Positions 6,254-31,723 of a stretch of DNA of 64,000 nt are shown one piece after another. Made by a program: the position numbers and the translations under genes. The stretch comes from Mugil cephalus (taxonomy: Eukaryota > Chordata > Actinopteri > Mugiliformes > Mugilidae), in assembly GCF_022458985.1 (NCBI RefSeq), contig NC_061776.1, positions 2,517,075 to 2,581,074 of the forward strand, read 5' to 3'. Below the pieces are notes generated by a model. The model worked only from the letters and a program-made list of their open reading frames with translations, did not search any database and was not told where the DNA came from. The stretch's first letter is position 1, and the number at the start of each line of letters is the position of its first letter.

Positions 6254-7119
6254 GCCTCCCACACCAACATGTCTGCACAGAGGAGGAGGTTCTCACTGAA
6301 CAGCAGCTCTGGACCCAGGTTAGGAAGTCCAGTCTGGACCAGGAGGAACCAGAACCTCTACAGATTAAAGAGGAACATGGGGAACCAGAGCATCCCCAGA
6401 TTAAAGAGGAACAAGAGGAGCCAGAACCTCCACAGACTAAAGAGGAACATGAGGAACCAGAACATCCACAGATTAAAGAGGAACAGGAGGAACCAGAACC
6501 TCTGCAGATGAAAGAGGAACAGGAGGAACCAGAACCTCTACAAATGAAGGAGGAACAGGAGGAACCAGAACCTCCACAGATTAAAGAGGAACAGGATGAA
6601 CCAGAACCTCCACAGATTAAAGAGGAACAGGAGGAACCAGAACCTCCACAGATGAAAGAGGAACAAGAGGAACCAGAACCTCCACAGATTAAAGAGGAAC
6701 AGGCGGAACTCTGCAGCATTCAGAGGAAAGAACATCTTGTACTGAACCAGGAGACTGATTCCTTTATGGAGACTCCTACTGATGAGGAAAGTGAGCACAG
6801 TGAACCACAACCAAACAATGACCATCTCCTTTCTCAGAACTTTGTATCTGTATCTGAGAGCCCAGATACAGATGGAATTAACCATGTAGACTCAGGATCA
6901 ACTAGAAATTCAGAGCTCAATTTAAAGAAGAGCAAGTTTTTCATGAACACAGGTGCAAAACCAAAACATCCTTGCAAAATATGTGGGAAATGTTTCAGTC
7001 AAATTGTTGATTTAAAAAAGCACATGAGGATTGCTTTGACAGTGGTAGGTGAAGAGATGAATCATGATCGCTTGTGCATCAACTATTGTGGTAAAGAATT
7101 CAAGGTATTTCTCATTTAA
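6254..7119 (+). CDS. Z2 exon 2, truncated frame: acidic repeat and one finger
   Basis: Acceptor CCTTGTAG|GCCTCC continues exon 1 in phase as [19 protein letters not shown]. Then come about ten 12-residue acidic repeats of the form [12 protein letters not shown] (residues roughly 85-195 of the spliced protein), a conserved [20 protein letters not shown] block, a polar linker, one good finger (CKICGKCFSQIVDLKKHMR) and then degenerate finger-like sequence ending at a stop. Predicted spliced product is 345 aa. Beyond the stop, 7120-7290 is finger-derived but out of frame, so the full-length reading is lost. Either a pseudogene or a finger-poor protein that keeps the N-terminal and acidic parts. 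Confidence 0.7.
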
Positions 7120-7202
7120 CAGAGGCCTTAGGCTCACAAGGTAGAAAGTAGGTGTGACATATGTGTAAAACGTCAGTTCATGCTTAATTTTAAGGGGCCA
7201 CT

Positions 7203-7905
7203 ATGATGACTACCACGAGAAAGCTATTTTTTGTAACACATGTGGTGATTTTGCCTTTACTACCAACATGTCTTTCGCACATGGACGATCTCACACCAGT
7301 TGAGAAGACGTACGGTTGTGACACATGTGGTAAATTCTTTAATCGGCGCGGTAATTTACAGGCCCACATGAGGACTCACACAGGTGAGAAGAAGTACAGT
7401 TGTGACACATGTGGTAAAACCTTTGCTCAAATAACTTATTTAGGTAGTCATATGAAGACTCACACAGGTGAAAAGCCACACGGTTGTGAGGCATGTGGTA
7501 AAACCTTTCATCGACGCAGTAATTTATACAAACACATGAGGACTCACACAGGTGAGAAGAATTACGGTTGTGACACTTGTGGTAAAACCTTCACTGAAAG
7601 AAGTTTTTTAACAAGACACATAAGGATTCACACAGGGGAGAGCCATATGGTTGTGACACATTGGTAAAAGCTTCAATCGAAGTTCCATTTGACTACTCAC
7701 ATGAGGACTCACACGGTGAGAGGAAGTACAGTTGTGACACATGTGTAAAACCTTCCGTGAAAAAGTACTTTAACTGTCACAGAGGATTCACACAGTGAGA
7801 AGATACAGTTGTGACACATGGTAAAACCTTCATTCATGGAGGTTCTTTAAGGAAGCACAGGAACACAAAAGTGAAATTTGTTGTCTCTGAAACATCTGTG
7901 TGGAA
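7203..7905 (+). pseudogene. Z2 C-terminal finger array, broken
   Basis: 7310-7640 gives four good fingers in one frame ([32 protein letters not shown] contact helices). From 7636 on the sequence is plainly the same as the end of Z4 (19690-19963), but many small losses of one to three bases destroy the frame. Upstream, 7120-7290 is older decay. The last four fingers and the SENLLS end of Z4 derive from this gene copy. See the findings on the hybrid junction and the indel patch. Confidence 0.75.
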
Positions 7906-9111
7906 ACAAAAGCTGAAGCTTCATAAAAATCATTCATCATAAAAATGATTTTTCAGGTTTATCGATTGTTCCTGAAATCTGATCAAATTATTCTCTGAGA
8001 TACGTTGAAGTAATTTTTTTAGTCCGGAGCCACATATCTGAAAAAAAAGCCACTCACACTTAAGCACAAAATACAAACCTGGGCACTAAACAGTGACGGA
8101 GACATTCCTGCTTGGAACAACATCTAACTGATACTTGTTTACAACAGGATTTGGAGAGGACCACTTCAAGACCACCTTAGTTTGTTAACCTAAAGCCTGT
8201 GCATGAGCTATAGGACAAGGAGATTATAGGAAAACCAAACTGTTGTAATGGTCAGAACTGAAAGAACATGGCTAACGAAACCACTCTTCCTGAGACTGTA
8301 GTACCTTGTATAGAAACTGACAATGTTTCAGTGACATTACTACTCAAATTGTGTGAGGTGACAATGTCAGACTGGACATTCAATATGAGGTTGGAAAACG
8401 GTGCAGTGAATTCATGGGGAATCCTCCAGAAGCAAAGATCTGAACTTCTACAAAAAGGACAATTTTCCCATGGTGAAGTGGCAATGAAGTACTCTAGATT
8501 ATCAGTAAAGTTCTTTTTCGTGTATCATCAGTAATATTAAAAACACTACTTCCTGTCAGCTGGAGTCTTCTCTTTCTTTGTGAGCTTATATCATTTGATG
8601 TTTGTACATGTTTTTGATTTCAGCAAATTTTATATTTTCCAAATTGAGAGGTAACATAGACCAAGGGGAGGTACTTTCAGACTTTATTTTATAGTTCTCT
8701 GTATCACTAATGTTTAAAAATAAAAGTTTTGAGTCCACAGTTGGGAAGTAAATTGTTGACAGAAGGTATTTGAAATCCATGGCCATAGTCTCGAACTGCA
8801 TAATTGCATTTTAAATTGCTTGAAAGTAACAGTGTTTATGTGATTATAAAAACTGTTTAAATACACATGGACACATTTGTATGATGATAAAATAAATGAT
8901 ATTTTTCATAAAAACTGCAAGGCAGTGCAGTTTTAAGTGGAAATTTTGAAAGGGCCATGTGGGGCTACTGCAGGGGTACCATCTCTGTCAACATGGGAAT
9001 CAAACCCACAACCAGAGCTAATCACACACACTTATGATCATCTTTCACTGAGCACTGATATTGAGGAACTGTAATCACACAAGTGACGTGTGTGTGTAAC
9101 TGTAATCACAT
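7906..9111 (+). other. 3' flank of Z2
   Basis: Same as 19990-21196 after Z4. An 88-codon ORF (8268-8534) is identical in the two units only because of the recent duplication. Its DNA matches, on the other strand, non-coding 3' flank of Z3 (12600-12665), so it is not a gene. No other gene seen. Confidence 0.6.
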
Positions 9112-9891
9112 AAAGTTACTTGGGTGTGTAACCATGTTGGATGAGCTTACGCTGATGACATTCAACTATACCTTTCACCGAATCCATCACCTCCTCTACA
9201 CTCTCTACCCTCTCAACTTGCCTCTCAGAAATAAACACATGAATGAAAACCAACTACCTTCAACTGAACTTCAATAAGTCAAACCTCCTAATCATTGGCC
9301 CCAAACACCTCATCTAGTCAGCTTAATATGTCTGTCCTTACATTGGCAACTCACCTCTGATTCCCTCCTCCCTCACCTGCAATCTTGGATTCATCTTTGA
9401 CACTCAGCTCACCCTCAAACAGCACATGAAACAGGTCACAAAAACAGCTGTCTTCCACCTCAGAAATATTGCCCGTCTCCGTCTATCTCTCTCCCCCACT
9501 GCAGCTGAAACACTCATCCACTCCTTCGTCACCTCCAGACTGGACTACTGCAATAGCCTCCTCTATGGTCCCACCTAAAACCAAGTACTGAACCCGGGGG
9601 GACATAGCCTTCTCAGCTGCTGCTCCCATTCTCTGGAACTCGCTGCTATCCCCCATCAGAAACTGCTCTGATGCCAACACATTTCATCCCTTTTAAAAAC
9701 TCATCTCTTGAAGACTGCTTTTAACATGTAGCCTCTACACTATGTTCATTTCAACTGTCCTCTTATTTCATTCCTTGTTTATTTAACATGCATAAAGTTT
9801 TCTTTTTGTGTGTATGCTTTTATGTCTGTTGTCTTTGAGCTTTGAAAAGCGCTATACAAATAAAATGTATTATTATTATTGTTATTATTAT
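9112..9891 (+). mobile_element. L2-type LINE, 5'-truncated
   Basis: Carries the reverse transcriptase motif YADDIQLY (9148-9171), followed in shifting frames by LSEINTWMKTNYLQLNFNKS-like sequence, NLGFIFDTQLTLKQHM, FHLRNIARLRLSLSPTA and LIHSFVTSRLDYCNSLLYG. The 3' UTR ends in GCTATACAAATAAAATGTAT and an ATT repeat, the usual end of fish L2 elements. Several frameshifts; inactive. It sits downstream of Z2 and was copied with the 12-kb unit. Confidence 0.88.
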
Positions 9892-10469
9892 ATGTACAGA
9901 ATGTGTATGTGTAGGGAATATTATTACAAATTTTCACATTTTGGTTTCTCGATCTTAATTGACGTTACCGTCTAACTTAAGCTACTAACATTTCAATATC
10001 TAGACTAAAGTTATGTCTGGATTCATACTGTAATATAACATTATTTCAATATAACTGAACACAGTTCAACATATTAAACCGAACCAAGTCTGTCGTTGTT
10101 ACCATAATATTGGTCATGTAGAAAAAGTAACGTGAACGAGACATTAATGTTTCCTACTTTACGTGGTGGATTAATATTTCCCAAACTGGCGCACTTTATT
10201 TAAAACTATCATTAATTATTATTTACATTCTGACTTCGCCTGGCTAACAAACTGGAGCCTAGACCATAAAAATAATTCTCCAAATTCACTTACTAGATGG
10301 TCTTGTAGGAGGTGCAGCAAAGCATACAACTATTATTTTTTAACTAAAATTATAAAAAAAAAAAATGAACCAAAACCTCAAACTCAGCCGAACGTTTGTC
10401 ATTAGCTAAGAGAGACCAAGGCTAGCTGCTAGTGGACTCTGGCAGCACCCATACGTCACCTGTCACTCA
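9892..10469. other. intergenic, nothing recognised
   Basis: AT-rich sequence with no ORF of note; same in both duplication units. Its right end holds about 48 bases (near 10435-10485) that are missing from unit 2. Confidence 0.4.
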
Positions 10470-11340
10470 AAGCAGGAACTTAATTATTTTACTGCATGTC
10501 AATGAATATGAACATTAAATCAGGTTTTGACAAGTGTCAGACTGCACATTCAATGTGAGGCTGGTAAACTGTGAAGTTGAGTTCAGGTGAATCTTCTACA
10601 AGCAGATCAACTTTTAAAGGAAGGACAATTCTTCCCAGGGTGAAGTGAAAATGAAGTGCTGTGAATGATCTGTTAAGTTCTTTTTTGGTGTATTATATTT
10701 AGTACTGAAAACATTGCTTCCTGTAAATGGAGTCTACCATTTGATGTTTTGTACATCTACATCTCAATGAAGAACTATAAAATCAAAGGAATCCATGTCG
10801 GTGAATGTGAATTATCCTATAACATGAAAACTGGCCTATTTTACTTTTTTTTTTTTTTTTCTAGTGTGGCAACGATGGTCTTCTGTATATATGTCTTTCA
10901 CAATGAGCTGGAAATATTGTCATTCAGTTGTGAATAAAATAATGAAATATGTCAATTCCAACAATTTCACCGTTGATGGTATTTAAAGCATTAAAATATA
11001 TCCATTGCCAAGTGTGTTGAGCTCATCTTAATTATTTTCAACTTCACAGGTTTCTTATTAAGGGGACTGACTTTTTAACAGGGAATAATATTCACATTTC
11101 ATAGTCTACAAATGAGCTTGCCAGAAAGTTTCCAGCAGTTCTAACAGTTTGTGTTGTTACTCAATCTACAAGTAAACTGGACCAGGAGGAAGTTGATGTG
11201 AGTGAGTTTTATTTTCTGATTCTAGTGTTGGCCATTTGTGTTCTTCAGAAGTTGCAGAGGGTGTTGTAAGTTCAAAGACAATTTGAGCAGGTGTCTTTGT
11301 TCCGTTAACAGTTGACTCCTGAGCAAAAAGGTGATACTAC
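10470..11340 (+). other. orphan 3' flank of a lost plus-strand finger gene
   Basis: Matches 1042-1950, the DNA after Z1 and before psi-a, in the same order and orientation: TGCATGTCAATGAATATGAA, then GACCAGGAGGAA, then TTAACAGTTGACT. No fingers lie in front of it. A plus-strand family member was probably deleted here, leaving only its flank. Confidence 0.55.
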
Positions 11341-12944
11341 CTCTACTTAGAGGAGTACAGAAAATTAACTATTAACTAATAAACTAATGTTTACCCACAA
11401 CCACAGAAGATTGAACGGAGGGCGATGGTGCAGACCGTTTTGTGACAAAGTTAAACTTCCTGAGGGAGTTTCCTTTTTGCCGCAAGTCAGTTTTCCATCA
11501 ATGGTCTACAGATGGAGTATTACACATATTATTCACTATATCTTAATTTCAGTGGGTCAGACATTCCAATGCACTCTGTTGACTGTGCCTTCAAACAGCT
11601 TAAACATTTCCAGGTAATGATGTCATGGCTTTAGAAGTGTCTAACTGGCTAACTGACATAATTTCAGACAACTGGAGGTGTGTCTACCTTCAAAACTGTT
11701 TATTTAACATCACAGTGAACAGTTAAACTCACATGAAGTAAACTGTCATTGAAACTCCACTAAGTGTTGCAGTTTTATCAACAATAATGTTCAGTTTTAA
11801 TAATGACAATAACACCTTTTTATTTGTGTTTATTTGAACGAGTTTTTAGAATCACAAAAACACTGCTCGTTTCAAGGCATTTAAAATGAATTCTGATTCT
11901 GATTCTGAAAATGCAGTACTGCAGTTCAACAATATGACCACGTGGTAGCAGTAAAGAGCCCTATGTGATATCTTCTGTCAATTTATTTCCAAGCTCTGAA
12001 CAGTAAATTTTCATATTTATACTATGAAATCAACTTTTGGAATAACTTGGTCTGTATCACCTCGAAAAGATGGAAAGCAGAAATTTTTGATGTAATCAAA
12101 AACGCTCAGGCAAAAAAAGAGAAGGCACCAGTTGACAGGAAACAGTGTTTTCAGTACTTATGATGATAAACCGGAAAGAACTTCAGTCATCCAGACTACT
12201 TCATTTTCACTTCACCCTGGGAATAATTATCTTTCCTGTAAAAATTTGGATCTTTGATTCTGGAAGATTCACCACAAATCACAATTTACCAGCCTCATAT
12301 TGAATGTGCAATTTGACATTGGTCAAAACCAGATTCCATAAACCAACCTCACACAGTTTGAAATACAGTTAAAGGCAAGGTATGTCACTTTTTTTGCACA
12401 ATTTTGTGCAACTTCTATAACAGCCTTTCTGCACATTGCTAATCAAATGTTGTGAAACAGCAGTTGACTTCTGTGCCTCCACTTGGCCGTAGTTTAAGGG
12501 CTTTATAAACACTCATCCCATGATGGACATTTTACACCAACCAGAGAAGATTTTACATATCCTGTCTTTGTCACTGTCACTGTCACTTTGTCAGTTTCTA
12601 TACATGGCACTCCAGTCTCTGGAAGAGTTGCTTTGTTAGCCATGTTCTTTGAGTTCCCACCATTAAAACATAGTCTGGTTGCCTTGTCTTCTTCTAGTCC
12701 CGTGGCTCCTGCATAACCTTTAGCTTAACAAATTAAGGTGCTCTTAAGGTGGACCTCTCCAAACCCTGTTGTAAACTCAAGTGTCAGTTGGTTAGGTTGT
12801 CCCAGACAGAGGGAGATGTCTCCTTCCATCTGTTTAATGTCCAAGTTTGCTATTTTTATGTTTAAGGTGAACGGTTTGTTTGTGCAGGACATTGTCTCTG
12901 AAATTAAAACTTTATTTCATCTTAGAAAATAATTAGATCAGTTG
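11341..12944 (-). other. 3' flank of Z3
   Basis: From about 12090 to 12940 this is the family 3' flank read on the minus strand (block CAGTTGACAGGAAACAGTG to CCAGAGACTGGAG). A poly(A) signal lies at 12910-12915 on the minus strand. 11341-12090 holds no recognised feature. Confidence 0.5.
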
Positions 12945-14529
12945 TCAGGACGACAACTTCTCACTTGTGTGAGTCCTCATGTGCTTCGTTCGAGAGGTAC
13001 TTCGAGTGAAGGTTTTACCACATGCATCACAACTGTATGGCTTGTCACCTGTATGAGTCTTCATGTGCCGAGTCAAGGCACTATTGTGACTGAAACGTTT
13101 CCCACATGTCTTGCAACAGGACGGCCTCTCACCTGTGTGAGTCCTCATGTGCCGTGTCAAAACACCAATATGACTGAAACATTTCCCACATGTCTTGCAA
13201 GAGGATGGCCTCTCACCTGTGTGGGTCCTCATGTGGTGCTTTAACGTAGTACTTCGAGTGAAAGTTTTACCACATGTGTCACAACCATATGGCTTCTCAC
13301 CTGAGTGAGTCCTCATGTGGTCCGTTAAAGTAGTAATTCGAGTGAAGGTTTTACCACATGTGTCACAACCGTACGGCTTCTCACCTGTATGAATCCTGAT
13401 GTGTAAAATCAAATCACTCTTCTGTGTGAAACTTTTACCACATGCGTTGCAATGATAGGGTGTCTCGCCCACATGAAATCTGTAATGTGTCTTCATTAAA
13501 TGCATGTACTTAAAGGCTTTTCCACAGACATCGCATGTTACAGACTTTTTACCTTTGTCAGTATGACACCAATTTTCTGACATGGGAGAGTTGTCTACAT
13601 TGTTACTGTGACTTGTGTCTCTGTGACAACTCATCTTAGGATTCAGCTCTGCATTTCTAGTTGATCCTGAGTCTACATGGTTGCTTCCTTCCTGATCTGG
13701 GCTCTCGGCTACCTCCTGTTCCTCTTTAATGTGTGGAGGTTCTGGTTCCTCCCATTCCTCTTTAAATTGCAGAGGTTCTGGTTCCTCCTGTTCCTCTTTA
13801 TCTTTGGAGGTTCCCCCTGTTCCTCTTTTATCTCTGGATTTATCTCAGGATGTTCTGGCTCCTCCCATTCCTCTTTTATATCTGGAGGTTCTAGTTCCTC
13901 CTGTTCATCTTTTATCTGTGTAGGTTCTGGTTCCTTTTGTTCCGCTTTCATTTGTAGAGGTTCCGGTTCCTCCTGTTCCTCTTTCATCTGTAGAGGTTCT
14001 GGTTCCTGCTGTTCGTCTTTCATCTGTGGATGTTCTGGTTCATCGTGTTCATCTTTCATCTGTAGAGGCTCTGGTTCCTCCTGTTCCTCTTCCATCTTTG
14101 GAGGTTCTGTTTCGTCCCATGCCCCTGTTATCTGTGGAGGTTCTGGTTCCTGCTGTTCCTCTTTCATCTGTGGAGGTTCTGGTTCCTGCTGTTCCTCTTT
14201 CATCTGTAGAGGCTCTGGTTCCTCCTGTTCCTCTTTCATCTTTGGAGGTTCTGTTTTGTCCCATGCCCCTGTTATCTGTGGAGGTTCTGATTCCTGCTGT
14301 TCCTCTTTCATCTGTGGAGGTTCTGGTTCCTGCTGTTCCTCTTTCATCTGTAGAGGTTCTGATCCCTCCTGTTCTTTTTTCATCTGTGAAGGTTCTGGTT
14401 TCTCCTGTTCCTCTTTCACATGTGGAGGTTCTGGTTCCTCCTGGTCCATACTAGAGTTCCTCTCCTGGTTATAGAGCTGCTGCTCAGTGAGACCCTCCTC
14501 CTCTGTGTAGACATGTTGCTGTAGAAGGT
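12945..14529 (-). pseudogene. Z3 exon 2: C2H2 protein with a one-base frameshift
   Basis: Copy of Z5 exon 2. The acceptor CCTCCAG|ACCTTCTACAGC lies at 14530. The frame runs DLLQQHVYTEEE, then a very long acidic repeat, then breaks in a T-run at about 13794-13800 where Z3 has one T fewer than Z5 (25830-25837). After the break the linker and seven canonical fingers ([17 protein letters not shown] to STSRTKHMRTHTSEKLSS) are intact in the other frame. The break splits DNA-binding fingers from the regulatory part. Since the rest is nearly identical to Z5, the lesion is very recent or a homopolymer sequencing error. Its exon 1 (16027-16165) is also ruined. Confidence 0.8.
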
Positions 14530-14664
14530 CTGGAGGGACAAAGAGACACAGCATAAAGGTTACTAATGTGATGACACATCTGATCAAATAGGTTCTAGTT
14601 TAAATTCATGTAGCGTTAGCTCTGCTAGTTACCCTCTTAGCATGTTAGTAGAGGTGAGGTGTTC

Positions 14665-15190
14665 ATCACTCAGTGCGTTTACATGCAGAGCTTAATCGAG
14701 CTATGCTCAAAATTCGACTTTCTCACTACAGTCCTTGTCCCAGTTTACATGCAGCGCAAGAAAAGCGAATAACTGTTCTCCTCTTCCACACTAGGTGGCG
14801 ATACGTGTCTTTTCAGCGGGATAACATCACGTTAATACGGCTTGATTTCTGGTGACCTATTACGTGATATAATAAACAAGAGTCCTTCATGTGGCATACC
14901 AGCATTTCAAACAACAACCAGACGGATAATAGTAATTTTTTTAATATTATACGTAATGTTCGCGCTACTTCTGATGCAGGTAAGATCCATGCTATCCCTC
15001 AGCCAGCTCCATTTCTCTTCTTCTTCTGCGTCCAGCTTTCTTGGACATTTTTGTTCCGGGGTCACACGTCAGCGTAGGGGTTGTGGAGCATGCACACACG
15101 CATTATCCGATAACAACTCCAATTCCAATCGCATTATCTGGATGTCACAATCGGACGATCATATATCTACAGGAATTTTTTAATACGATG
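14665..15190. mobile_element. non-autonomous DNA-transposon-like repeat in Z3 intron
   Basis: Begins CAGTGCGTTTACATGC. An inverted, diverged copy lies at 48966-49330 and the duplicated copy at 26702-27227. Shared marks are AGGTGGCGATACGTGTCTTT, TTATACGTAATGTTCGCGCT (or a close variant) and TTTTTGTTCCGGGGTCAC. The TTTACATGC-type ends are typical of fish MITEs; superfamily not determined and target-site repeats not identified. Confidence 0.5.
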
Positions 15191-16026
15191 TCTTACATTA
15201 CTACCATGTTCTCCTAATGACAGGAAAGAGTGTGTCATCCAAATCCAGGGATGTCCTTAGGATCCTCACCATTATAAGTGGTCATTTCTCCAACACACTG
15301 ATGTTGAAATACTTGTCATCTCACTTAACAGCAAAAATATGTGATATCTTTATCAAGTTTTAAGTCTATCAGAATATCCATTCACCCACATTCACACACT
15401 GATGGATATGCCATCAGGAACAACTGGGTTTAGAATTGGGAAACTGGTTCACTATCTTGCTAAAAGACACTTCAACATGTAGACCGGTTGCTCTAGATTA
15501 AAAAAACAAAAAACAAAAAAAAAAACTACTTGCTTTCACGTGTGACCATTTAAATACAAGAGTGCACCATTATGTGCCTTGGTATAGCCATCATACAGGT
15601 GAGAGAGCATCCTTGTTTTTTTTTAACAGTCAGATAAACTTTACAAACTTTTGCAATCCATCAGATCTTGACCCTACTTATGTTTGATATCTTTTATTAA
15701 ACTGTATACAAATACAGGTTTTGGGCAGTGTGGTAGATATTTACAGATACTGTTTAGAAAACAATTCTTTTACAGAGACACAGGGTCACACTTTTACATG
15801 GTTTAATGATCACTCTGATCTGTCAAAGGGACTCAAGTTCTCACAGATCATCCCTGATTTCAGGCAGTTTTAAGACAATATATTACTTAACTACTTCAAT
15901 ACTTATTTTCTCTTCAGAACAGTATTGTGATTGGTAAATTAAGTATGTAAAGTATAATAACATTTGAAAATCAGAAATCAAGAATAAGTTTGAGGTTTTC
16001 ATTCAGATCATTCTAGTTCTACTCAC
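15191..16026 (-). other. rest of Z3 intron 1
   Basis: Nothing recognised apart from an A-rich run near 15500-15525. Identical in layout to 27228-28075. Confidence 0.4.
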
Positions 16027-16165
16027 CTATCCTGTGTAACTTTATCTCGGGTTTCCAGGTGATATCCAGCAGTCTGCGCTGACGATCGATCTGTACCTGG
16101 TAAAATTTCTTCTGTAGCAGTTTGTCGGTCTATGATCAACTCTCTGAAAACTCTCAGCTTAGCTG
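16027..16165 (-). pseudogene. Z3 exon 1 relic without start codon
   Basis: Reads in reverse as GCTGAGAGTTTTCAGAGAG, TTGATCATAGACC, GAAGAAATTTTACCAGGTAC, GATCGATCGTCAGCGCAGAC and so on to ACACAGGATAG|GTGAGT. Compared with Z7-Z9, the ACAATGTCTTCA start is missing and about 29 bases covering FGLFERTVVQ are lost, which shifts the frame. The splice donor is kept. It may survive as a non-coding 5' exon. Confidence 0.75.
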
Positions 16166-16280
16166 CTACAGCTCAGATACTTATCGTGACGACACAACAC
16201 ACTCGTCCTTCAGTTCAGTCCACAAACACAGAAACACAACTCCACCAACGAGGTCTACCATCGGGGTTTAAAAAGCAAAT

Positions 16281-16318
16281 CCACGTCCGCCTGGTGTCCC
16301 ACTATAAAATTCCGTCAG
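16281..16318 (-). promoter_or_regulatory. promoter-proximal conserved block of Z3
   Basis: On the minus strand CTGACGGAATTTTATAGTGG, then GACACCAGGCGGACGTGG. It holds a TATA-like TTTTATAG and an ETS-like GGCGGA core. It lies about 120 bases before the exon 1 relic, as in Z10. Inferred from conservation across the cluster. Confidence 0.55.
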
Positions 16319-16639
16319 ATGGGGGACAATTAACATTTAGTTCCGCTGTATTTTTTATTTTTTTTTTTTTGGATCATCAATTTCCTGCAGGGACGTTAAC
16401 TCTAACATGATTTTGTCCAAGACTCACCAGATGAGAAAGGACCAGATATCAAAGAAAAGAAAAGAGTAGAAAATAAGATTGAGGTAAAAGTAAAAAAAAT
16501 ACAAAAAATGTACAGTCCAATTCACACAATTTACATGAAATATACTAACATCTATACACAGACATGAGGTATACAGACATTTTAGCTAAAGTGTCTCACT
16601 GTTTAGATAAAGTGTCCCACTATAAGGTTATCTAAACTG

Positions 16640-16677
<38 letters not shown>

Positions 16678-16788
16678 TGATTTTTGTTTTATATTTGGGG
16701 TATTTGGAATTAATATAGCTACAGGAAACTGTTGATATGATCCGAAGTGACATTTTAAAATGTAGCAGAACATGTTGACTCTTCTACC
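16319..16788. other. spacer between divergent promoters of Z3 and Z4
   Basis: Includes a (TG)n microsatellite at 16643-16675 and a T-run near 16350. About 367 bases of this spacer (roughly 16320-16690) are missing from the second unit. Confidence 0.7.
16643..16675. repeat. (TG)n microsatellite
   Basis: About 16 TG units in the spacer between Z3 and Z4; absent from unit 2. Confidence 0.9.
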
Positions 16789-16827
16789 CTGACGGAATTT
16801 ATTAGTGAGCAACTTGGGTGAAGTTAG
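16789..16827 (+). promoter_or_regulatory. promoter-proximal conserved block of Z4
   Basis: CTGACGGAATTTATTAGTGA, then GCAACTTGGGTGAAGTT. The left half matches all paralogues; the right half has drifted. The ATG lies about 140 bases downstream. Confidence 0.5.
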
Positions 16828-16968
16828 GGCTAGGTGGCGCTGTCATGTACCCGAGAGGAAGAGGAAGTAAGTTTTTATAACCTGGTAGTAGCGTTGTTGT
16901 GTTTGTGGACTGAGCTGGAGGACGACTGTGTTCTGTCCCAGACAAATATTTGAGCTGTTGAACTAACA

Positions 16969-17140
16969 ATGTCCTCAGCTGAGAATTTGAGAGACTTGAT
17001 CATCGAGCCACTAACTGTTTCTCCTGAAGAAATATTCGGACTCTTTGAAAGAACTGTCGTCCAGTCCGAGGAAGAGATAGATCGTCAGCGCAGACTGCTG
17101 GATATCACCTGGAAACCCGTGATAAAGTTACACAGAATAG
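16969..17140 (+). CDS. Z4 exon 1: N-terminal module
   Basis: 57 codons plus one base, ATG in context AACAATGTCCTC: MSSAENLRDLIIEPLT, VSPEEIFGLFERTVVQS, EEEIDRQRRLLDITW, KPVIKLHRI. Donor ATAG|GTAAGT. Identical to Z6 exon 1 except Val for Glu in the KPVIK/KPEIK stretch. Confidence 0.9.
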
Positions 17141-18479
17141 GTAAGTAGAACTAGAAAGGTCTGAATGAACTAACTAATGAATGGAAACACACAGTGTGGA
17201 GAAGACACAGAGGAAAGATACTTAGCTACAAGGTTGCTAACATGCTAAAAGGCTAACTAGCACAGCTCTACATGGTTTCGTCTCGAGGCCTATTTTTCTG
17301 CCTTCTGTGTGAAAATGACATACAATAGCAAATGTGTTGTATTTTATTATACCTAAGGGCTATATGAATAATTTTGGTCACCTGTGTGTTACTGTGTTAG
17401 AGAAAATTCACCTGAAAAAAAAGAAAGAAAAAAAAAATTCTGTTCTCGTCTAAGAAAAAACCCTGGATTATTTAGAGTAAAAGACCACCTCTGATTTGTG
17501 GTTAAACGAAGCCCAATAGAAATTTGAATCAGTAATGTAAAATCTGATGTGTAACTGTGCAAAAGTAGATGGTATAAAGGTCAATCTGAACAGTTTTAGA
17601 GATGTTTTAGCCCATTTGTGTCCAGGTGGAACCACCAATAGTACCTTTTTGTCACATTTTGGCACCATATGTGACATTTAACCATTCTCTGGTACCCGTC
17701 TGAATTAAGTTTCACTGATGTATCACTAAATATAAGTTACAGTTTTGACTCATTCACCCAGAACATATGTAAAAGGAGGCCTTTGGTGAAAGTCAAAGGA
17801 CAATATCTCGACAGCGGAGTGACAATTTTAATGATTGACATCTCTTTAGATCAATCAGAGTGGAGTAGCAACCACCAAAGACAATCCAGAGCAAAGTAAA
17901 CCCAAAGATCGCATGTTGTCAGTGACCCGACACTTCAACCTAGGAGCCTCTGCCTTTTTACACATATAAACGAGAGCACCATGATTCATTCCAAACTGAT
18001 GTCATAGGAGTCATAGGAGAAGCCATTAGCAGTATTTCTTTGGAGCTGGAATATAACTTTCAATCACAAAACAGCAATGGTAAGACCTACTTTAAGATTT
18101 TGCGAATTTTATTTTTGTGACTCTTTGGCTTCTAGCCCTCTGAGTTCGTGAGGTTAGTAGAAGCACTAAATGAGATGACATTTTCATGTTTTCGTCATGT
18201 TCCCATACAATTACTTGGGGTTTTATTTGTGTTTAGTTTAAGTGGCAATGCCTAATAGAGGCTTTTAGATGAGTTTCTCCCCGTCATTTTGGTGTATTAC
18301 ATGTTCAGAGTGGTGCATGCTATCATACGTTTAGATTGTCTGTAGCACACGGATCTCACCTCAGACCCCAGTACAGGGGGTGCGCAGGTCAAAGTGGTTA
18401 AGCTAGAACACATTTGCTCAGACATGTTGTCCTGTCAGCACGCTAATAACCTTTATGTTGTGTCTCTTTGTACCTCCAG
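17141..18479 (+). other. intron 1 of Z4
   Basis: Phase-1 GT-AG intron with no recognised repeat; nearly identical to the Z6 intron (28824-30161). Confidence 0.7.
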
Positions 18480-19963
18480 ACCTCCCACCTCAACATGTCT
18501 GCACAGAGGAGGAGGTTCTCACTGGGCAGCAGCTCTGTAACCAGGAGAGGAACTCCAGTCTGGACCAAGAGGATCCAGAACCTCCACAGATTAAAGAGGA
18601 ACATGAGGAACCAGAGCATTCACAGATTAAAAAGGAACAAGAGGAACCAGAACCTCCACAGATTAAAGAGGAAGAAGAGGAACCAGAACCTCTGCAGATA
18701 AAAAAGGAACAGGAAGAACCAGAACCTCTACAAATGAAAGGGGAACAGGGGGAACCAGAACCACCACAGATGAAAGAGGAACAGCAGGAACCAGAACCTA
18801 TACAGATAAAAAAGGAACAGGAAGAACCCGAACCTCCACAGATTAAAGAGGAACAGGAGGAACTCTGCAGCATTCAGTGGGAAGAACATCTTGTACTGAA
18901 CCAGGAGACTGATTCCTTTGTGGAGACTCCTACTGATGAGGACAGTGAATATAGTGAACCAGAACCAAACAGTGACCAGTTCCTCTCTTGGAAGTCTGAA
19001 TCCAAACAGCTGAACCCAAAGCAGAGACGTCACAGAAACACAAGTCACAGTAACAATGTAGACAACTCTTCCATGTCAGAGAATCAGTATGATACTGACA
19101 CTGGTAAAAAGTCTGTAACATGTGATGTCTGTGGGAAAGCCTTTAAGTACATGTCTTTAATGAAAATACATTACAGATTTCACACTGGGGAGACACCTTA
19201 CCAGTGCAACACATGCGGTAAAAGTTTCACGCGTACTAATAGTTTAATTTTACACACTATGATTCACACAGGTGAGAAGCCATATCCTTGCAAACTATGT
19301 GGGAAGAGTTTTATTAAAAATGGTGCTTTGACTCGGCACATGAGGATTCACACAGGTGAGAAGCCGTACGGTTGTGACACATGTGGTAAAACCTTCACTG
19401 AAAAAATTAATTTAACATGTCACCTGAGGACTCACACAGGTGAAAAGCCATACGGTTGTGACACATGCGGTAAAACCTTCGCTGATGGAAGTACTTTAAC
19501 AAAGCACAGGAGGACTCACACAGGTGAGAAGCCATACAGTTGTGACACATGTGGTAAAACCTTTCATCGACGCAGTAATTTATACAAACACATGAGGACT
19601 CACACAGGTGAGAAGAATTACGGTTGTGACACTTGTGGTAAAACCTTCACTGAAAGAAGTTTTTTAACAAGACACATAAGGATTCACACAGGGGAGAAGC
19701 CATATGGTTGTGACACATGTGGTAAAAGCTTCAATCGAAGTTCTCATTTGACTACTCACATGAGGACTCACACGGGTGAGAGGAAGTACAGTTGTGACAC
19801 ATGTGGTAAAACCTTCCGTGAAAAAGGTACTTTAACTGGTCACATGAGGATTCACACAGGTGAGAAGAAGTACAGTTGTGACACATGTGGTAAAACCTTC
19901 ATTCATGGAGGTTCTTTAAGGAAGCACAGGAGGACTCACAAAAGTGAGAATTTGTTGTCCTGA
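18480..19963 (+). CDS. Z4 exon 2: acidic repeat and ten fingers (hybrid gene)
   Basis: Acceptor TACCTCCAG|ACCTCC gives [19 protein letters not shown]. The spliced protein is 551 aa: N-terminal module (1-57), eight acidic 12-mers with IKEE, IKKE, MKGE or MKEE, the [20 protein letters not shown] block, a linker with [13 protein letters not shown], then ten canonical fingers. Fingers 1-5 and the first Cys pair of finger 6 match Z6. From [11 protein letters not shown] on, the sequence matches Z2 (7508 onward) to the end and into the 3' flank. Z4 is thus a fusion made by unequal exchange, with an intact frame and a finger set found in neither parent. Likely a nuclear DNA-binding regulator; target unknown. 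Confidence 0.93.
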
Positions 19964-21196
19964 AACATCTGTGTGGAACAAAAGCTGAGCTTCATAAAAA
20001 ATCATTCAATCATAAAAATGATTTTTTCAGGTTTATCGTTGTTCCTGAAATCTGATCAAATTATTCTCTGAGATACGTTGAAATAATTTTTTTAGTCCGG
20101 ACCCAGCATTCTGAAAAAACAAGCCACTCACCTTAAGCACACAAATACCAAACCTGGGCACTAAACAGATGGACGGAGACATCTCCCTCTGCTTGGAACA
20201 ACCATCTAACTGATACTTGAGTTTACAACAGGATTTGGAGAGGACCACTTCAAGACCACCTTAGTTTGTTAACCTAAAGCCTGTGCATGAGCTATAGGAC
20301 AAGGAGATTATAGGAAAACCAAACTGTTGTAATGGTCAGAACTGAAAGAACATGGCTAACGAAACCACTCTTCCTGAGACTGTAGTACCTTGTATAGAAA
20401 CTGACAATGTTTCAGTGACATTACTACTCAAATTGTGTGAGGTGACAATGTCAGACTGGACATTCAATATGAGGTTGGAAAACGGTGCAGTGAATTCATG
20501 GGGAATCCTCCAGAAGCAAAGATCTGAACTTCTACAAAAAGGACAATTTTCCCATGGTGAAGTGGCAATGAAGTACTCTAGATTATCAGTAAAGTTCTTT
20601 TTCGTGTATCATCAGTAATATTAAAAACACTACTTCCTGTCAGCTGGAGTCTTCTCTTTCTTTGTGAGCTTATATCATTTGATGTTTGTACATGTTTTTG
20701 ATTTCAGCAAATTTTATATTTTCCAAATTGAGAGGTAACATAGACCAAGGGGAGGTACTTTCAGACTTTATTTTATAGTTCTCTGTATCACTAATGTTTA
20801 AAAATAAAAGTTTTGAGTCCACAGTTGGGAAGTAAATTGTTGACAGAAGGTATTTGAAATCCATGGCCATAGTCTCGAACTGCATAATTGCATTTTAAAT
20901 TGCTTGAAAGTAACAGTGTTTATGTGATTATAAAAACTGTTTAAATACACATGGACACATTTGTATGATGATAAAATAAATGATATTTTTCATAAAAACT
21001 GCAAGGCAGTGCAGTTTTAAGTGGAAATTTTGAAAGGGCCATGTGGGGCTACTGCAGGGGTACCATCTCTGTCAACATGGGAATCAAACCCACAACCAGA
21101 GCTAATCACACACACTTATGATCATCTTTCACTGAGCACTGATATTGAGGAACTGTAATCACACAAGTGACGTGTGTGTGTAACTGTAATCACATA
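19964..21196 (+). other. 3' flank of Z4
   Basis: Clean version of the 3' flank also found after Z2. No gene seen; the 20352-20618 ORF is the duplicate of the non-gene ORF at 8268. Confidence 0.6.
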
Positions 21197-21976
21197 AAGT
21201 TACTTGGGTGTGTAACCATGTTGGATGAGCTTACGCTGATGACATTCAACTATACCTCTTCACCGAATCCATCACCTCCTCTACACTCTCTACCCTCTCA
21301 ACTTGCCTCTCAGAAATAAACACATGAATGAAAACCAACTACCTTCAACTGAACTTCAATAAGTCAAACCTCCTAATCATTGGCCCCAAACACCTCATCT
21401 AGTCAGCTTAATATGTCTGTCCTTACATTGGCAACTCACCTCTGATTCCCTCCTCCCTCACCTGCAATCTTGGATTCATCTTTGACACTCAGCTCACCCT
21501 CAAACAGCACATGAAACAGGTCACAAAAACAGCTGTCTTCCACCTCAGAAATATTGCCCGTCTCCGTCTATCTCTCTCCCCCACTGCAGTTGAAACACTC
21601 ATCCACTCCTTCGTCACCTCCAGACTGGACTACTGCAATAGCCTCCTCTATGGTCCCACCTAAAACCAAGTACTGAACCCGGGGGGACATAGCCTTCTCA
21701 GCTGCTGCTCCCATTCTCTGGAACTCGCTGCTATCCCCCATCAGAAACTGCTCTGATGCCAACACATTTCATCCCTTTTAAAAACTCATCTCTTGAAGAC
21801 TGCTTTTAACATGTAGCCTCTACACTATGTTCATTTCAACTGTCCTCTTATTTCATTCCTTGTTTATTTAACATGCATAAAGTTTTCTTTTTGTGTGTAT
21901 GCTTTTATGTCTGTTGTCTTTGAGCTTTGAAAAGCGCTATACAAATAAAATGTATTATTATTATTGTTATTATTAT
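21197..21976 (+). mobile_element. L2-type LINE, duplicated copy
   Basis: Duplicate of 9112-9891, with YADD at 21232-21243. Differs by a few bases (for example a CTCTTCACC instead of CTTTCACC stretch after ACTATAC). Confidence 0.88.
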
Positions 21977-24900
21977 ATGTACAGAATGTGTATGTGTAGG
22001 GAATATTATTACAAATTTTCACATTTTGGTTTCTCGATCTTAATTGACGTTACCGTCTAACTTAAGCTACTAACATTTCAATATCTAGACTAAAGTTATG
22101 TCTGGATTCATACTGTAATATAACATTATTTCAATATAACTGAACACAGTTCAACATATTAAACCGAACCAAGTCTGTCGTTGTTACCATAATATTGGTC
22201 ATGTAGAAAAAGTAACGTGAACGAGACATTAATGTTTCCTACTTTACGTGGTGGATTAATATTTCCCAAACTGGCGCACTTTATTTAAAACTATCATTAA
22301 TTATTATTTACATTCTGACTTCGCCTGGCTAACAAACTGGAGCCTAGACCATAAAAATAATTCTCCAAATTCACTTACTAGATGGTCTTGTAGGAGGTGC
22401 AGCAAAGCATACAACTATTATTTTTTAACTAAAATTATATAAAAAAAAATGAACCAAAACCTCAAACTCAGCCGAACGTTTGTCATTAGCTAAGAGAGAC
22501 CAAGGCTAGCTGCTAGCTGCTTATTTTACTGCATGTCAATGAATATGAACATTAAATCAGGTTTTGACAAGTGTCAGACTGCACATTCAGTGTGAGGCTG
22601 GTAAACTGTGAAGTTGAGTTCAGGTGAATCTTCTACAAGCAGATCAACTTTTAAAGGAAGGACAATTCTTCCCAGGGTGAAGTGAAAATGAAGTGCTGTG
22701 AATGATCTGTTAAGTTCTTTTTTGGTGTATTATATTTAGTACTGAAAACATTGCTTCCTGTAAATGGAGTCTACCATTTGATGTTTTGTACATCTACATC
22801 TCAATGAAGAACTATAAAATCAAAGGAATCCATGTCGGTGAATGTGAATTATCCTATAACATGAAAACTGGCCTATTTTACTTTTTTTTTTTTTTTCTAG
22901 TGTGGCAACGATGGTCTTCTGTATATATGTCTTTCACAATGAGCTGGAAATATTGTCATTCAGTTGTGAATAAAATAATGAAATATGTCAATTCCAACAA
23001 TTTCACCGTTGATGGTATTTAAAGCATTTAAATATATCCATTGCCAAGTGTGTTGAGTTCATCTTAATTATTTTCAACTTCACAGGTTTCTTATTAAGGG
23101 GACTGACTTTTTAAAAGGGAATAATATTCACATTTCATAGTCTACAAATGAGCTTGCCAGAAAGTTTCCAGCAGTTCTAACAGTTTGTGTTGTTACTCAA
23201 TCTACAAGTAAACTGGACCAGGAGGAAGTTGATGTGAGTGAGTTTTATTTTCTGATTCTAGTGTTGGCCACTTGTGTTCTTCAGAAGTTGCAGAGGGTGT
23301 TGTAAGTTCAAAGATAATTTGAGCAGGTGTCTTTGTTCCGTTAACAGTTGACTCCTGAGCAAAAAGGTGATACTACCTCTACTTAGAGGAGTACAGAAAA
23401 TTAACTAATCACTAATAAACTAATGTTTACCCACAACCACAGAAGATTGAACGGAGGGCGATGGTGCAGACCGTTTTGTGACAAAGTTAAACTTCCTGAG
23501 GGAGTTTCCTTTTTGCCGCAAGTCAGTTTTCCATCAATGGTCTACAGATGGAGTATTACACATATTATTCACTATATCTTAATTTCAGTGGGTCAGACAT
23601 TCCAATGCACTCTGTTGACTGTGCCTTCAAACAGCTTAAACATTTCCAGGTAATGATGTCATAGCTGTAGAAGCTTCTAATTGGCTAACTGACATAATTT
23701 CAGACAACTGGAGGTGTGTCTACCTTCAAAACTGTTTATTTAACATCACAGTGAACAGTTAAACTCACATGAAGTAAACTGTCATTGAAACTCCACTAAG
23801 TGTTGCAGTTTTATCAACAATAATGTTCAGTTTTAATAATGACAATAACACCTTTTTATTTGTGTTTATTTGAACGAGTTTTTAGAATCACAAAAACACT
23901 GCTCGTTTCAAGGCATTTAAAATGAATTCTGATTCTGATTCTGAAAATGCAGTACTGCAGTTCAACAATATGACCACGTGGTAGCAGTAAAGAGCCCTAT
24001 GTGATATCTTCTGTCAATTTATTTCCAAGCTCTGAACAGTAAATTTTCATATTTATACTATGAAATCAACTTTTGGAATAACTTGGTCTGTATCACCTCG
24101 AAAAGTTGGAAAGCAGAAATTTTTGATGTAATCAAAAACGCTCAGGCAAAAAAAGAGAAGACACCAGTTGACAGGAAACAGTGTTTTCAGTACTTATGAT
24201 GATAAACCGGAAAGAACTTCAGTCATCCAGACTACTTCATTTTCACTTCACCCTGGGAATAATTATCTTTCCTGTAAAAATTTGTATCTTTGATTCTGGA
24301 AGATTCACCACAAATCACAATTTACCGGCCTCATATTGAATGTGCAATTTGACACTGGTCAAAACCAGATTCCATAAACCAACCTCACACAGTTTGAAAT
24401 ACAGTTAAAGGCAAGGTATGTCACTTTTTTTGCACAATTTTGTGCAACTTCTATAACAGCCTTTCTGCACATTGCTAATCAAATGTTGTGAAACAGCAGT
24501 TGACTTCTGTGCCTCCACTTGGCCGTAGTTTAAGGGCTTTATAAACACTCATCCCATGATGGACATTTTACACCAACCAGAGAAGATTTTACATATCCTG
24601 TCTTTGTCACTGTCACTGTCACTTTGTCAGTTTCTATACATGGCACTCCAGTCTCTGGAAGAGTTGCTTTGTTAGCCATGTTCTTTGAGTTCCCACCATT
24701 AAAACATAGTCTGGTTGTCTTGTCTTCTTCTAGTCCCGTGGCTCCTGCATAACCTTTAGCTTAACAAATTAAGGTGCTCTTAAGGTGGACCTCTCCAAAC
24801 CCTGTTGTAAACTCAAGCGTCAGTTGGTTAGGTTGTCCCAGACAGAGGGAGATGTCTCCTTCCATCTGTTTAATGTCCAAGTTTGCTATTTTTATGTTTA

Positions 24901-24980
24901 AGGTGAACGGTTTGTTTGTGCAGGACATTGTCTCTGAAATTAAAACTTTATTTCATCTTAGAAAATAATTAGATCAGTTG
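21977..24980. other. intergenic: duplicate of 9892-12944
   Basis: 22510-23375 is the orphan plus-strand 3' flank; 24130-24975 is the 3' flank of Z5 with a minus-strand poly(A) signal at 24947-24952. No gene seen. Confidence 0.55.
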
Positions 24981-26566
24981 TCAGGACGACAACTTCTCAC
25001 TTGTGTGAGTCCTCATGTGCTTCGTTCGAGAGGTACTTCGAGTGAAGGTTTTACCACATGCATCACAACTGTATGGCTTGTCACCTGTATGAGTCTTCAT
25101 GTGCCGAGTCAAGGCACTATTGTGACTGAAACGTTTCCCACATGTCTTGCAACAGGACGGCCTCTCACCTGTGTGAGTCCTCATGTGCCGTGTCAAAACA
25201 CCAATATGACTGAAACATTTCCCACATGTCTTGCAAGAGGATGGCCTCTCACCTGTGTGGGTCCTCATGTGGTGCTTTAACGTAGTACTTCGAGTGAAGG
25301 TTTTACCACATGTGTCACAACCATATGGCTTCTCACCTGAGTGAGTCCTCATGTGGTCCGTTAAAGTAGTAATTCGAGTGAAGGTTTTACCACATGTGTC
25401 ACAACCGTACGGCTTCTCACCTGTATGAATCCTGATGTGTAAAATCAAATCACTCTTCTGTGTGAAACTTTTACCACATGCGTTGCAATGATAGGGTGTC
25501 TCGCCCACATGAAATCTGTAATGTCTCTTCATTAAATGCATGTACTTAAAGGCTTTTCCACAGATATCGCATGTTACAGACTTTTTACCTTTGTCAGTAT
25601 GACACCAATTTTCTGACATGGGAGAGTTGTCTACATTGTTACTGTGACTTGTGTCTCTGTGACAACTCATCTTAGGATTCAGCTCTGCATTTCTAGTTGA
25701 TCCTGAGTCTACATGGTTGCTTCCTTCCTGATCTGGGCTCTCGGCTACCTCCTGTTCCTCTTTAATGTGTGGAGGTTCTGGTTCCTCCCATTCCTCTTTA
25801 AATTGCAGAGGTTCTGGTTCCTCCTGTTCCTCTTTTATCTTTGGAGGTTCCCCCTGTTCCTCTTTTATCTCTGGATTTATCTCAGGATGTTCTGGCTCCT
25901 CCCATTCCTCTTTTATATCTGGAGGTTCTAGTTCCTCCTGTTCATCTTTTGTCTGTGTAGGTTCTGGTTCCTTTTGTTCCGCTTTCATTTGTAGAGGTTC
26001 CGGTTCCTCCTGTTCCTCTTTCATCTGTAGAGGTTCTGGTTCCTGCTGTTCGTCTTTCATCTGTGGATGTTCTGGTTCATCGTGTTCATCTTTCATCTGT
26101 AGAGGCTCTGGTTCCTCCTGTTCCTCTTCCATCTTTGGAGGTTCTGTTTCGTCCCATGCCCCTGTTATCTGTGGAGGTTCTGGTTCCTGCTGTTCCTCTT
26201 TCATCTGTGGAGGTTCTGGTTCCTGCTGTTCCTCTTTCATCTGTAGAGGCTCTGGTTCCTCCTGTTCCTCTTTCATCTTTGGAGGTTCTGTTTTGTCCCA
26301 TTCCCCTGTTATCTGTGGAGGTTCTGATTCCTGCTGTTCCTCTTTCATCTGTGGAGGTTCTGGTTCCTGCTGTTCCTCTTTCATCTGTAGAGGTTCTGAT
26401 CCCTCCTGTTCTTTTTTCATCTGTGAAGGTTCTGGTTTCTCCTGTTCCTCTTTCACATGTGGAGGTTCTGGTTCCTCCTGGTCCATACTAGAGTTCCTCT
26501 CCTGGTTATAGAGCTGCTGCTCAGTGAGACCCTCCTCCTCTGTGTAGACATGTTGCTGTAGAAGGT
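24981..26566 (-). CDS. Z5 exon 2: longest acidic array and seven fingers
   Basis: The acceptor CCTCCAG|ACCTTC lies at 26567. The frame runs unbroken through DLLQQHVYTEEEGLTEQQL, about 20 acidic repeats (16 with a hydrophobic-Lys-x-Glu motif; two variant repeats read QITGEWDKTEPPK or QITGAWDETEPPK and lack the Lys), a linker, and seven canonical fingers ending STSRTKHMRTHTSEKLSS. There are no ELCSIQ or VLNQETDSF blocks, unlike the plus genes. Exon 1 is ruined (28076-28214), so the natural start is unclear. The frame stays open upstream into the intron to ATGs at 26624 and 26591 (MLCLFVPP). It may be a functional protein from an alternative start, or a gene dying from its 5' end. Confidence 0.8.
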
Positions 26567-26701
26567 CTGGAGGGACAAAGAGACACAGCATAAAGGTTAC
26601 TAATGTGATGACACATCTGATCAAATAGGTTCTAGTTTAAATTCATGTAGCGTTAGCTCTGCTAGTTACCCTCTTAGCATGTTAGTAGAGGTGAGGTGTT
26701 C

Positions 26702-27227
26702 ATCACTCAGTGCGTTTACATGCAGAGCTTAATCGAGCTATGCTCAAAATTCGACTTTCTCACTACAGTCCTTGTCCCAGTTTACATGCAGCGCAAGAAA
26801 AGCGAATAACTGTTCTCCTCTTCCACACTAGGTGGCGATACGTGTCTTTTCAGCGGGATAACATCACGTTAATACGGCTTGATTTCTGGGTGACCTATTA
26901 CGTGATATAATAAACAAGAGTCCTTCATGTGGCAGACCAGCATTTCAAACAACAACCAGACGGATAATAGTAATTTTTTTAATATTATACGTAATGTTCG
27001 CGCTACTTCTGATGCAGGTAAGATCCATGCTATCCCTCAGCCAGCTCCATTTCTCTTCTTCTTCTGCGTCCAGCTTTCTTGGACATTTTTGTTCCGGGGT
27101 CACACGTCAGTGTAGGGGTTGTGGAGCATGCGCACACGCATTATCCGATAACAACTCCAATTCCAATCGCATTTTCTGGATGTCACAATCGGACAATCGT
27201 ATATCTACAGGAATTTTTTAATACGAT
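26702..27227. mobile_element. non-autonomous DNA-transposon-like repeat in Z5 intron
   Basis: Duplicate of 14665-15190 with a handful of substitutions. Confidence 0.5.
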
Positions 27228-28075
27228 GTCTTACATTACTACCATGTTCTCCTAATGACAGGAAAGAGTGTGTCATCCAAATCCAGGGATGTCCTTAGGA
27301 TCCTCACCATTATAAGTGGTCATTTCTCCAACACACTGATGTTGAAATACTTGTCATCTCACTTAACAGCAAAAATATGTGATATCTTTATCAAGTTTTA
27401 AGTCTATCAGAATATCCATTCACCCACATTCACACACTGATGGATATGCCATCAGGAACAACTGGGTTTAGAATTGGGCAACTGGTTCAGTATCTTGCTA
27501 AAAGACACTTCAACATGTAGACCGGTTGCTCTAGATTAAAAAAACAAAAAACAAACAAACAAAAAAAACTACTTGCTTTCACGTGTGACCATTTAAATAC
27601 AAGAGTGCACCATTTTGTACCTTGGTATAGCCATCATGCAGGTGAGAGAGCATCCTTGTTTTTTTTTTTTTTTAACAGTCAGATAAACTTTACAAACTTT
27701 TGCAATCCATCAGATCTTGACCCTACTTATGTTTGATATCTTTTATTAAACTGTATACAAATACAGGTTTTGGGCAGTGTGGTAGATATTTACAGATACT
27801 GTTTAGAAAACAATTCTTTTACAGAGACACAGGGTCACACTTTTACATGGTTTAATGATCACTCTGATCTGTCAAAGGGACTCAAGTTCTCACAGATCAT
27901 CCCTGATTTCAGGCAGTTTTAAGACAATATATTACTTAACTACTTCAATACTTATTTTCTCTTCAGAACAGTATTGTGATTGGTAAATTAAGTATGTAAA
28001 GTATAATAACATTTGAAAATCAGAAATCAAGAATAAGTTTGAGGTTTTCATTCAGATCATTCTAGTTCTACTCAC
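27228..28075 (-). other. rest of Z5 intron 1
   Basis: Duplicate of 15191-16026; an A/C-rich run near 27538-27568 and a T-run near 27658 differ in length from unit 1. Nothing else seen. Confidence 0.4.
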
Positions 28076-28214
28076 CTATCCTGTGTAACTTTATCTCGGG
28101 TTTCCAGGTGATATCCAGCAGTCTGCGCTGACGATCGATCTGTACCTGGTAATATTTCTTCTGTAGCAGTTTGTCGGTCTATGATCAACTCTCCGAAAAC
28201 TCTCAGCTTAGCTG
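28076..28214 (-). pseudogene. Z5 exon 1 relic without start codon
   Basis: Same lesions as the Z3 relic: start region deleted and about 29 bases lost in the FGLFERT stretch, donor kept. The damage therefore predates the 12-kb duplication. Confidence 0.75.
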
Positions 28215-28329
28215 CTACAGCTCAGATACTTATCGTGACGACACAACACACTCGTCCTTCAGTTCAGTCCACAAACACAGAAACACAACTCCACCAACGA
28301 GGTCTACCATCGGGGTTTAAAAAGCAAAT

Positions 28330-28367
28330 CCACGTCCGCCTGGTGTCCCACTATAAAATTCCGTCAG
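28330..28367 (-). promoter_or_regulatory. promoter-proximal conserved block of Z5
   Basis: Identical to the Z3 block. Just beyond it unit 2 jumps straight to the Z6 upstream region, leaving only about 105 bases between the two divergent blocks. Confidence 0.55.
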
Positions 28368-28471
28368 ATATATAATATTGGGGTATTTGGAATTAATATA
28401 GCTACAGGAAACTGTTGATATGATCCGAAGTGACATTTTAAAATGTAGCAGAACATGTTGACTCTTCTACC

Positions 28472-28508
28472 CTGACGGAATTTATTAGTGAGCAACTTGG
28501 GTGAAGTT
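28472..28508 (+). promoter_or_regulatory. promoter-proximal conserved block of Z6
   Basis: CTGACGGAATTTATTAGTGA, as in Z4; about 140 bases before the ATG. Confidence 0.5.
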
Positions 28509-28651
28509 AGGGCTAGGTGGCGCTGTCATGTACCCGAGAGGAAGAGGAAGTAAGTTTTTATAACCTGGTAGTAGCGTTGTTGTGTTTGTGGACTGAGCTG
28601 GAGGACGACTGTGTTCTGTCCCAGACAAATATTTGAGCTGTTGAACTAACA

Positions 28652-28823
28652 ATGTCCTCAGCTGAGAATTTGAGAGACTTGATCATCGAGCCACTAACTG
28701 TTTCTCCTGAAGAAATATTCGGACTCTTTGAAAGAACTGTCGTCCAGTCCGAGGAAGAGATAGATCGTCAGCGCAGACTGCTGGATATCACCTGGAAACC
28801 CGAGATAAAGTTACACAGAATAG
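28652..28823 (+). CDS. Z6 exon 1: N-terminal module
   Basis: 57 codons plus one base from ATG in AACAATGTCCTC; same as Z4 but with the usual KPEIKLHRI end. Donor ATAG|GTAAGT. Confidence 0.9.
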
Positions 28824-30161
28824 GTAAGTAGAACTAGAAAGGTCTGAATGAACTAACTAATGAATGGAAACACACAGTGTGGAGAAGACACAGAGGAAAG
28901 ATACTTAGCTACAAGGTTGCTAACATGCTAAAAGGCTAACTAGCACAGCTCTACATGGTTTCGTCTTGAGGCCTATTTTTCTGCCTTCTGTGTGAAAATG
29001 ACATACAATAGCAAATGTGTTGTATTTTATTATACCTAAGGGCTATATGAATAATTTTGGTCACCTGTGTGTTACTGTGTTAGAGAAAATTCACCTGAAA
29101 AAAAAGAAAGAAAAAAAAAATTCTGTTCTCGTCTAAGAAAAAACCCTGGATTATTTAGAGTAAAAGACCACCTCTGATTTGTGGTTAAACGAAGCCCAAT
29201 AGAAATTTGAATCAGTAATGTGAAAATCTGATGTGTAACTGTGCAAAAGTAGATGGTATAAAGGTCAATCTGAACAGTTTTAGAGATGTTTTAGCCCATT
29301 TGTGTCCAGGTGGAACCACCAATAGTACCTTTTTGTCACATTTTGGCACCATATGTGACATTTAACCATTCTCTGGTACCCGTCTGAATTAAGTTTCACT
29401 GATGTATCACTAAATATAAGTTACAGTTTTGACTCATTCACCCAGAACATATGTAAAAGGAGGCCTTTGGTGAAAGTCAAAGGACAATATCTCGACAGCG
29501 GAGTGACAATTTTAATGATTGACATCTCTTTAGATCAATCAGAGTGGAGTAGCAACCACCAAAGACAATCCAGAGCAAAGTAAACCCAAAGATCGCATGT
29601 TGTCAGTGACCCGACACTTCAACCTAGGAGCCTCTGCCTTTTTACACATATAAACGAGAGCACCATGATTCATTCCAAACTGATGTCATAGGAGTCATAG
29701 GAGAAGCCATTAGCAGTATTTCTTTGGAGCTGGAATATAACTTTCAATCACAAAACAGCAATGGTAAGACCTACTTTAAGATTTTGCGAATTTTATTTTT
29801 GTGACTCTTTGGCTTCTAGCCCTCTGAGTTCGTGAGGTTAGTAGAAGCACTAAATGAGATGACATTTTCATGTTTTCGTCATGTTCCCATACAATTACTT
29901 GGGGTTTTATTTGTGTTTAGTTTAAGTGGCAATGCCTAATAGAGGCTTTTAGATGAGTTTCTCCCGTCATTTTGGTGTATTACATGTTCAGAGTGGTGCA
30001 TGCTATCATACGTTTAGATGTCTGTAGCACACGGATCTCACCTCAGACCCCAGTACAGGGGGTGCGCAGGTCAAAGTGGTTAAGCTAGAACACATTTGCT
30101 CAGACATGTTGTCCTGTCAGCACGCTAATAACCTTTATGTTGTGTCTCTTTGTACCTCCAG
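28824..30161 (+). other. intron 1 of Z6
   Basis: Phase-1 GT-AG intron, nearly identical to the Z4 intron; no repeat recognised. Confidence 0.7.
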
Positions 30162-31723
30162 ACCTCCCACCTCAACATGTCAGCACAGAGGAGGAGGTTC
30201 TCACTGGGCAGCAGCTCTATAACCAGGAGAGGAACTCCAGTCTGGACCAAGAGGATCCAGAACCTCCACAGATTAAAGAGGAACATGAGGAACCAGAGCA
30301 TCCACAGATTAAAAAGGAACAAGAGGAACCAGAACCTCCACAGATTAAAGAGGAAGAAGAGGAACCAGAACCTCTGCAGATAAAAAAGGAACAGGAAGAA
30401 CCAGAACCTCTACAAATGAAAGAGGAACAGGGGGAACCAGAACCACCACAGATGAAAGAGGAACAGCAGGAACCAGAACCTATACAGATAAAAAAGGAAC
30501 AGGAAGAACCCGAACCTCCACAGATTAAAGAGGAACAGGAGGAACTCTGCAGCATTCAGTGGGAAGAACATCTTGTACTGAACCAGGAGACTGATTCCTT
30601 TGTGGAGACTCCTACTGATGAGGACAGTGAGCACAGTGAACCAGAACCAAACAGTAACCAGTTCCTCTCTTGGAAGTCTGAATCCAAACAGCTGAATCCA
30701 AAGCAGAGTCGTCACAGAAACACAAGTCACAGTAACAATGTAGACAACTCTCCCATGTCAGAGAGTCAGTATGATACTGGTAAAAAGTCTGTAACATGTG
30801 ATGTCTGTGGGAAAGCCTTTAAGTACATGTCTTTAATGAAAATACATTACAGATTTCACACTGGGGAGACACCTTACCAGTGCAACACATGCGGTAAAAG
30901 TTTCACGCGTACTAATAGTTTGATTTTACACACCATGATTCACACAGGTGAGAAGCCATATCCTTGCAAACTATGTGGGAAGAGTTTTATTAAAAATGGT
31001 GCTTTGACTCGGCACATGAGGATTCACACAGGTGAGAAGCCGTACGGTTGTGACACATGTGGTAAAACCTTCACTGAAAAAATTTATTTAACATGTCACC
31101 TGAGGACTCACACAGGTGAAAAGCCATACGGTTGTGACACATGCGGTAAAACCTTCACTGATGGAAGTACTTTAACAAAGCACAGGAGGACTCACACAGG
31201 TGAGAAGCCATACAGTTGTGACACATGTGGTAAAACCTTCAAAGACAGAAGTTCTTTATCAAGGCATATGAGGTCTCACACAGGTGAGAGGCCATATGGT
31301 TGTGACACATGTGGTAAAACCTTCATTCAAAGAATTACTTTAGATCAACACATGAGGACTCACACAGGTGAGAAGCCATATCCTTGCAAAGTATGTGGGA
31401 AACATTTCATTAAAAATGGTGCTTTGACTCGGCACATGAGGATTCACACGGGTGAGAAGCCATATTGTTGTGATACATGTGGTAAAGCCTTCACTCAAAA
31501 AATTTATTTAACGTATCACCTGAGGACTCACACAGGTGAGAAGCCATACTGTTGTGACACATGTGGTAAAACCTTCAAAGACAGAAGTACTTTAACATCT
31601 CACAGGAGGACTCACACAGGTGAGAAGCCGTACGGTTGTGACACATGTGGTAAAACCTTCATTCAAAGTACTTCTTTAACAAGGCACATGAGCACTCACA
31701 GAAATGAGAAGTCTTCGTGTTGA
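30162..31723 (+). CDS. Z6 exon 2: acidic repeat and eleven fingers
   Basis: Acceptor TACCTCCAG|ACCTCC. The spliced product is 577 aa: module 1-57, eight acidic 12-mers all carrying a hydrophobic-Lys-x-Glu motif (IKEE, IKKE or MKEE), the [20 protein letters not shown] block, a linker, then eleven canonical fingers with TGEKP linkers. Fingers 3 and 8 ([15 protein letters not shown]) are near copies, as are 4 and 9 (IYLTCH and IYLTYH), which points to internal array duplication. Ends in RNEKSSC like Z7 and Z8. Poly(A) signal at 31752-31757. This is the intact parent of the front half of Z4. Confidence 0.93.

Follow-up and report, generated by a model that had tools for sequence, protein, structure and literature searches.

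A hybrid zinc-finger gene at the junction of a 12-kb tandem repeat in Mugil cephalus, probably formed by unequal exchange

When a gene in a tandem cluster carries the beginning of one neighbor and the end of another, was it made by exchange between those neighbors, or by the assembly? The case considered here is Z4, a zinc-finger gene within a window of 64,000 nucleotides (the whole stretch of DNA analyzed; contig NC_061776.1, positions 2,517,075 to 2,581,074) from the genome of Mugil cephalus. Judging from the sequence, Z4 is intact and was probably formed as a hybrid by unequal exchange (crossover) between two neighboring genes during a 12-kb tandem duplication. Coordinates of all features are collected in Table 1.

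Composition of Z4 and its switch point

Z4 consists of the head of its downstream parent and the tail of its upstream parent, as expected of unequal exchange. A sequence-only reading had described the gene as Z6-like up to a 16-base run and, right after it, matching Z2 from position 7508 of the window onward, at the junction of a 12-kb duplication, and comparison of the switch and of the two units confirmed this. The switch keeps the finger register, and on its head side imperfect homology continues. Under the crossover interpretation, neighboring finger genes would have exchanged ends within their finger arrays, duplicating the 12 kb between the break points; consistent with this, the duplicated interval is colinear and its bounds are the two parental break points.

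The tandem C2H2 fingers, joined by TGEKP-type linkers in a single exon, identify a poly-C2H2 zinc-finger gene, here modeled with two exons. Exon 1 gave no sign of KRAB, having no Pfam match at the threshold in Table 1, although an additional upstream exon is possible; KRAB was also absent from the Pfam families listed (25 of 26) for a 5'-extended exon 2.

Table 1. Features of the window, with positions, strand, and basis or content.
Feature	Position	Strand	Basis or content
Unit 1 of duplication	7508-19563	+	unit-unit alignment
Unit 2 of duplication	19564-31239	+	unit-unit alignment
Switch point, 16 identical bases	19548-19563	+	
Copy of 16-base switch run	7492-7507	+	
Copy of 16-base switch run	31224-31239	+	
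Patch in unit 1	7641-8165	+	27 deletion and 6 insertion events, 2 substitutions vs. unit 2 copy
Exon 1 of two-exon model	16969-17140	+	57 aa; no Pfam family at E<=1
Finger exon (exon 2)	18480-19963	+	Pfam zf-C2H2 and zf-H2C2_2
Other feature	4699-7870	+	
Other feature	12945-14587	-	
Other feature	24981-26624	-	
Other feature	28652-28823	+	
Other feature	30162-31723	+	
Other feature	42666-42672	+	

The duplicated units and their surroundings

The two colinear units lie in a crowded zinc-finger gene cluster. After position 8170 they differ by 67 substitutions (43 of them transitions) at 10,970 aligned sites, a divergence of 0.61%, and by 13 indels, including 366 and 47 bases that are absent in unit 2. 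The substitutions are unevenly spread (dispersion 2.5). A patch near the start of unit 1 has far more indels for its substitutions than the sequence after 8170, with its 13 indels and 67 substitutions (Fisher p = 6e-16), with its first deletion at 7640/7641 and no differences in the 132 bases 5' or the 100 bases 3' of it. This pattern fits unpolished long-read sequence and is unlike decay, from which we infer that the patch is unpolished or gap-filled. It is not a plain unmerged overlap, because 5000-7640 has no match in 8166-12900; that is, sequence 5' of the patch is not repeated just 3' of it.

The 184 kb sampled around the window contain two gaps of 500 N. One splits a near-identical repeat of 16.2 kb (contig positions 2584203-2600431 and 2600932-2616981, ~3-36 kb to the right of the window), whose longest piece is 99.4% identical and whose last piece is 99.1% identical; some 150 bases occur on just one side of the gap. 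The five zinc-finger arrays of this region (loci L015-L018) have probably been counted twice, as two overlapping contig ends left unmerged. The other gap has 550 bases on each side at 97.1% identity (contig positions 2630415-2632012, where L019 ends and L020 begins), and we infer the same cause for both repeats.

Weighing the possible origins

Several observations weigh against unequal exchange, and most of them bear on its main rival, a false duplication produced by the assembly, which we consider unlikely. False duplications between alleles have been described (PMC9516828), and both gaps in this cluster are flanked on two sides by near-identical sequence, which raises the prior for such an error inside the window. 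The patch begins only 133 bases inside unit 1, and around it 7508-7640 and 8166-9504 (1,472 bases) are free of substitutions where ~10 were expected (P about 4e-5), with a single one-base indel at position 9173; taken together, these suggest assembly trouble or later homogenization. The unit divergence and its dispersion also resemble the uneven 99.2-99.9% identity of the 16.2-kb repeat. Two alleles may differ as much as the units do. On the other hand, there is no N between the 12-kb copies, unlike the gap repeats, and the junction sequence has no oddity and does not lie at the patch.

Sixteen exactly matching bases at the switch are few for classical homologous recombination, and longer runs, up to 29 bases, were available. 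Both facts would suit a replication-based, microhomology-mediated template switch yielding the same product. The product alone cannot distinguish that mechanism from crossover; however, the preserved finger register and the continuing homology on the head side leave a template switch rather improbable. Tandem families often undergo gene conversion, which would suit the uneven identity along the units, but we regard it as very improbable here. Selection on the Z4 head was not detectable (12 nonsynonymous and 6 synonymous changes, p = 0.14). Unequal exchange, as the sequence-only reading proposed, is partly supported and stands as likely rather than proven: the head-to-tail join and the colinear interval with parental bounds support it, while the patch and the substitution-free stretch do not, and assembly error remains its main rival.

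What is gained is a base-level, possibly young case of hybrid zinc-finger (ZNF) gene birth. Should the duplication prove real, it shows a new transcription-factor specificity arising, base by base and next to both parent genes, and one can ask whether such hybrids are expressed and retained and whether they bind transposable elements. An artefact would serve as a warning that false duplications in finger clusters can pass for new genes.

Relation to known zinc-finger systems

The repeats of the PRDM9 finger array recombine and change its specificity, within one gene or its alleles; here the exchange would lie between two genes, with the intervening sequence duplicated. The following comparisons concern particular descriptions in each source. 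For human chromosome 19, recombination within its tandem ZNF clusters has been proposed to change copy number and yield new genes with proteins recognizing new DNA (Lukic et al. 2013, PMC3921586); the argument there is statistical, in contrast to the single junction at base level here, and the present family is without KRAB in Pfam. The FiNZ-ZNF genes share with Z4 a short N-terminal exon followed by a finger exon, and large clusters in fish (PMC10547256). FiNZ, however, is described as a 28-aa domain unique to cyprinids, as opposed to the 57-aa exon 1 here; in zebrafish, transposable elements are derepressed when FiNZ-ZNF translation is blocked (PMC10547256). Among the titles and abstract openings searched, none states that a hybrid ZNF gene of a fish arose where two duplicated units join, which is not a claim of absence from print. 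Mouse KZFP clusters are recombinogenic, with tandem and segmental duplication and duplicated or reordered finger triplets (PMC5363842, PMC12575710). The descriptions compared speak of block duplications and of chimeric transposable elements at edges, whereas the break described here falls inside a finger array. New genes from recombination in ZNF clusters are thus a known class, proposed for the human clusters and in line with the mouse ones.
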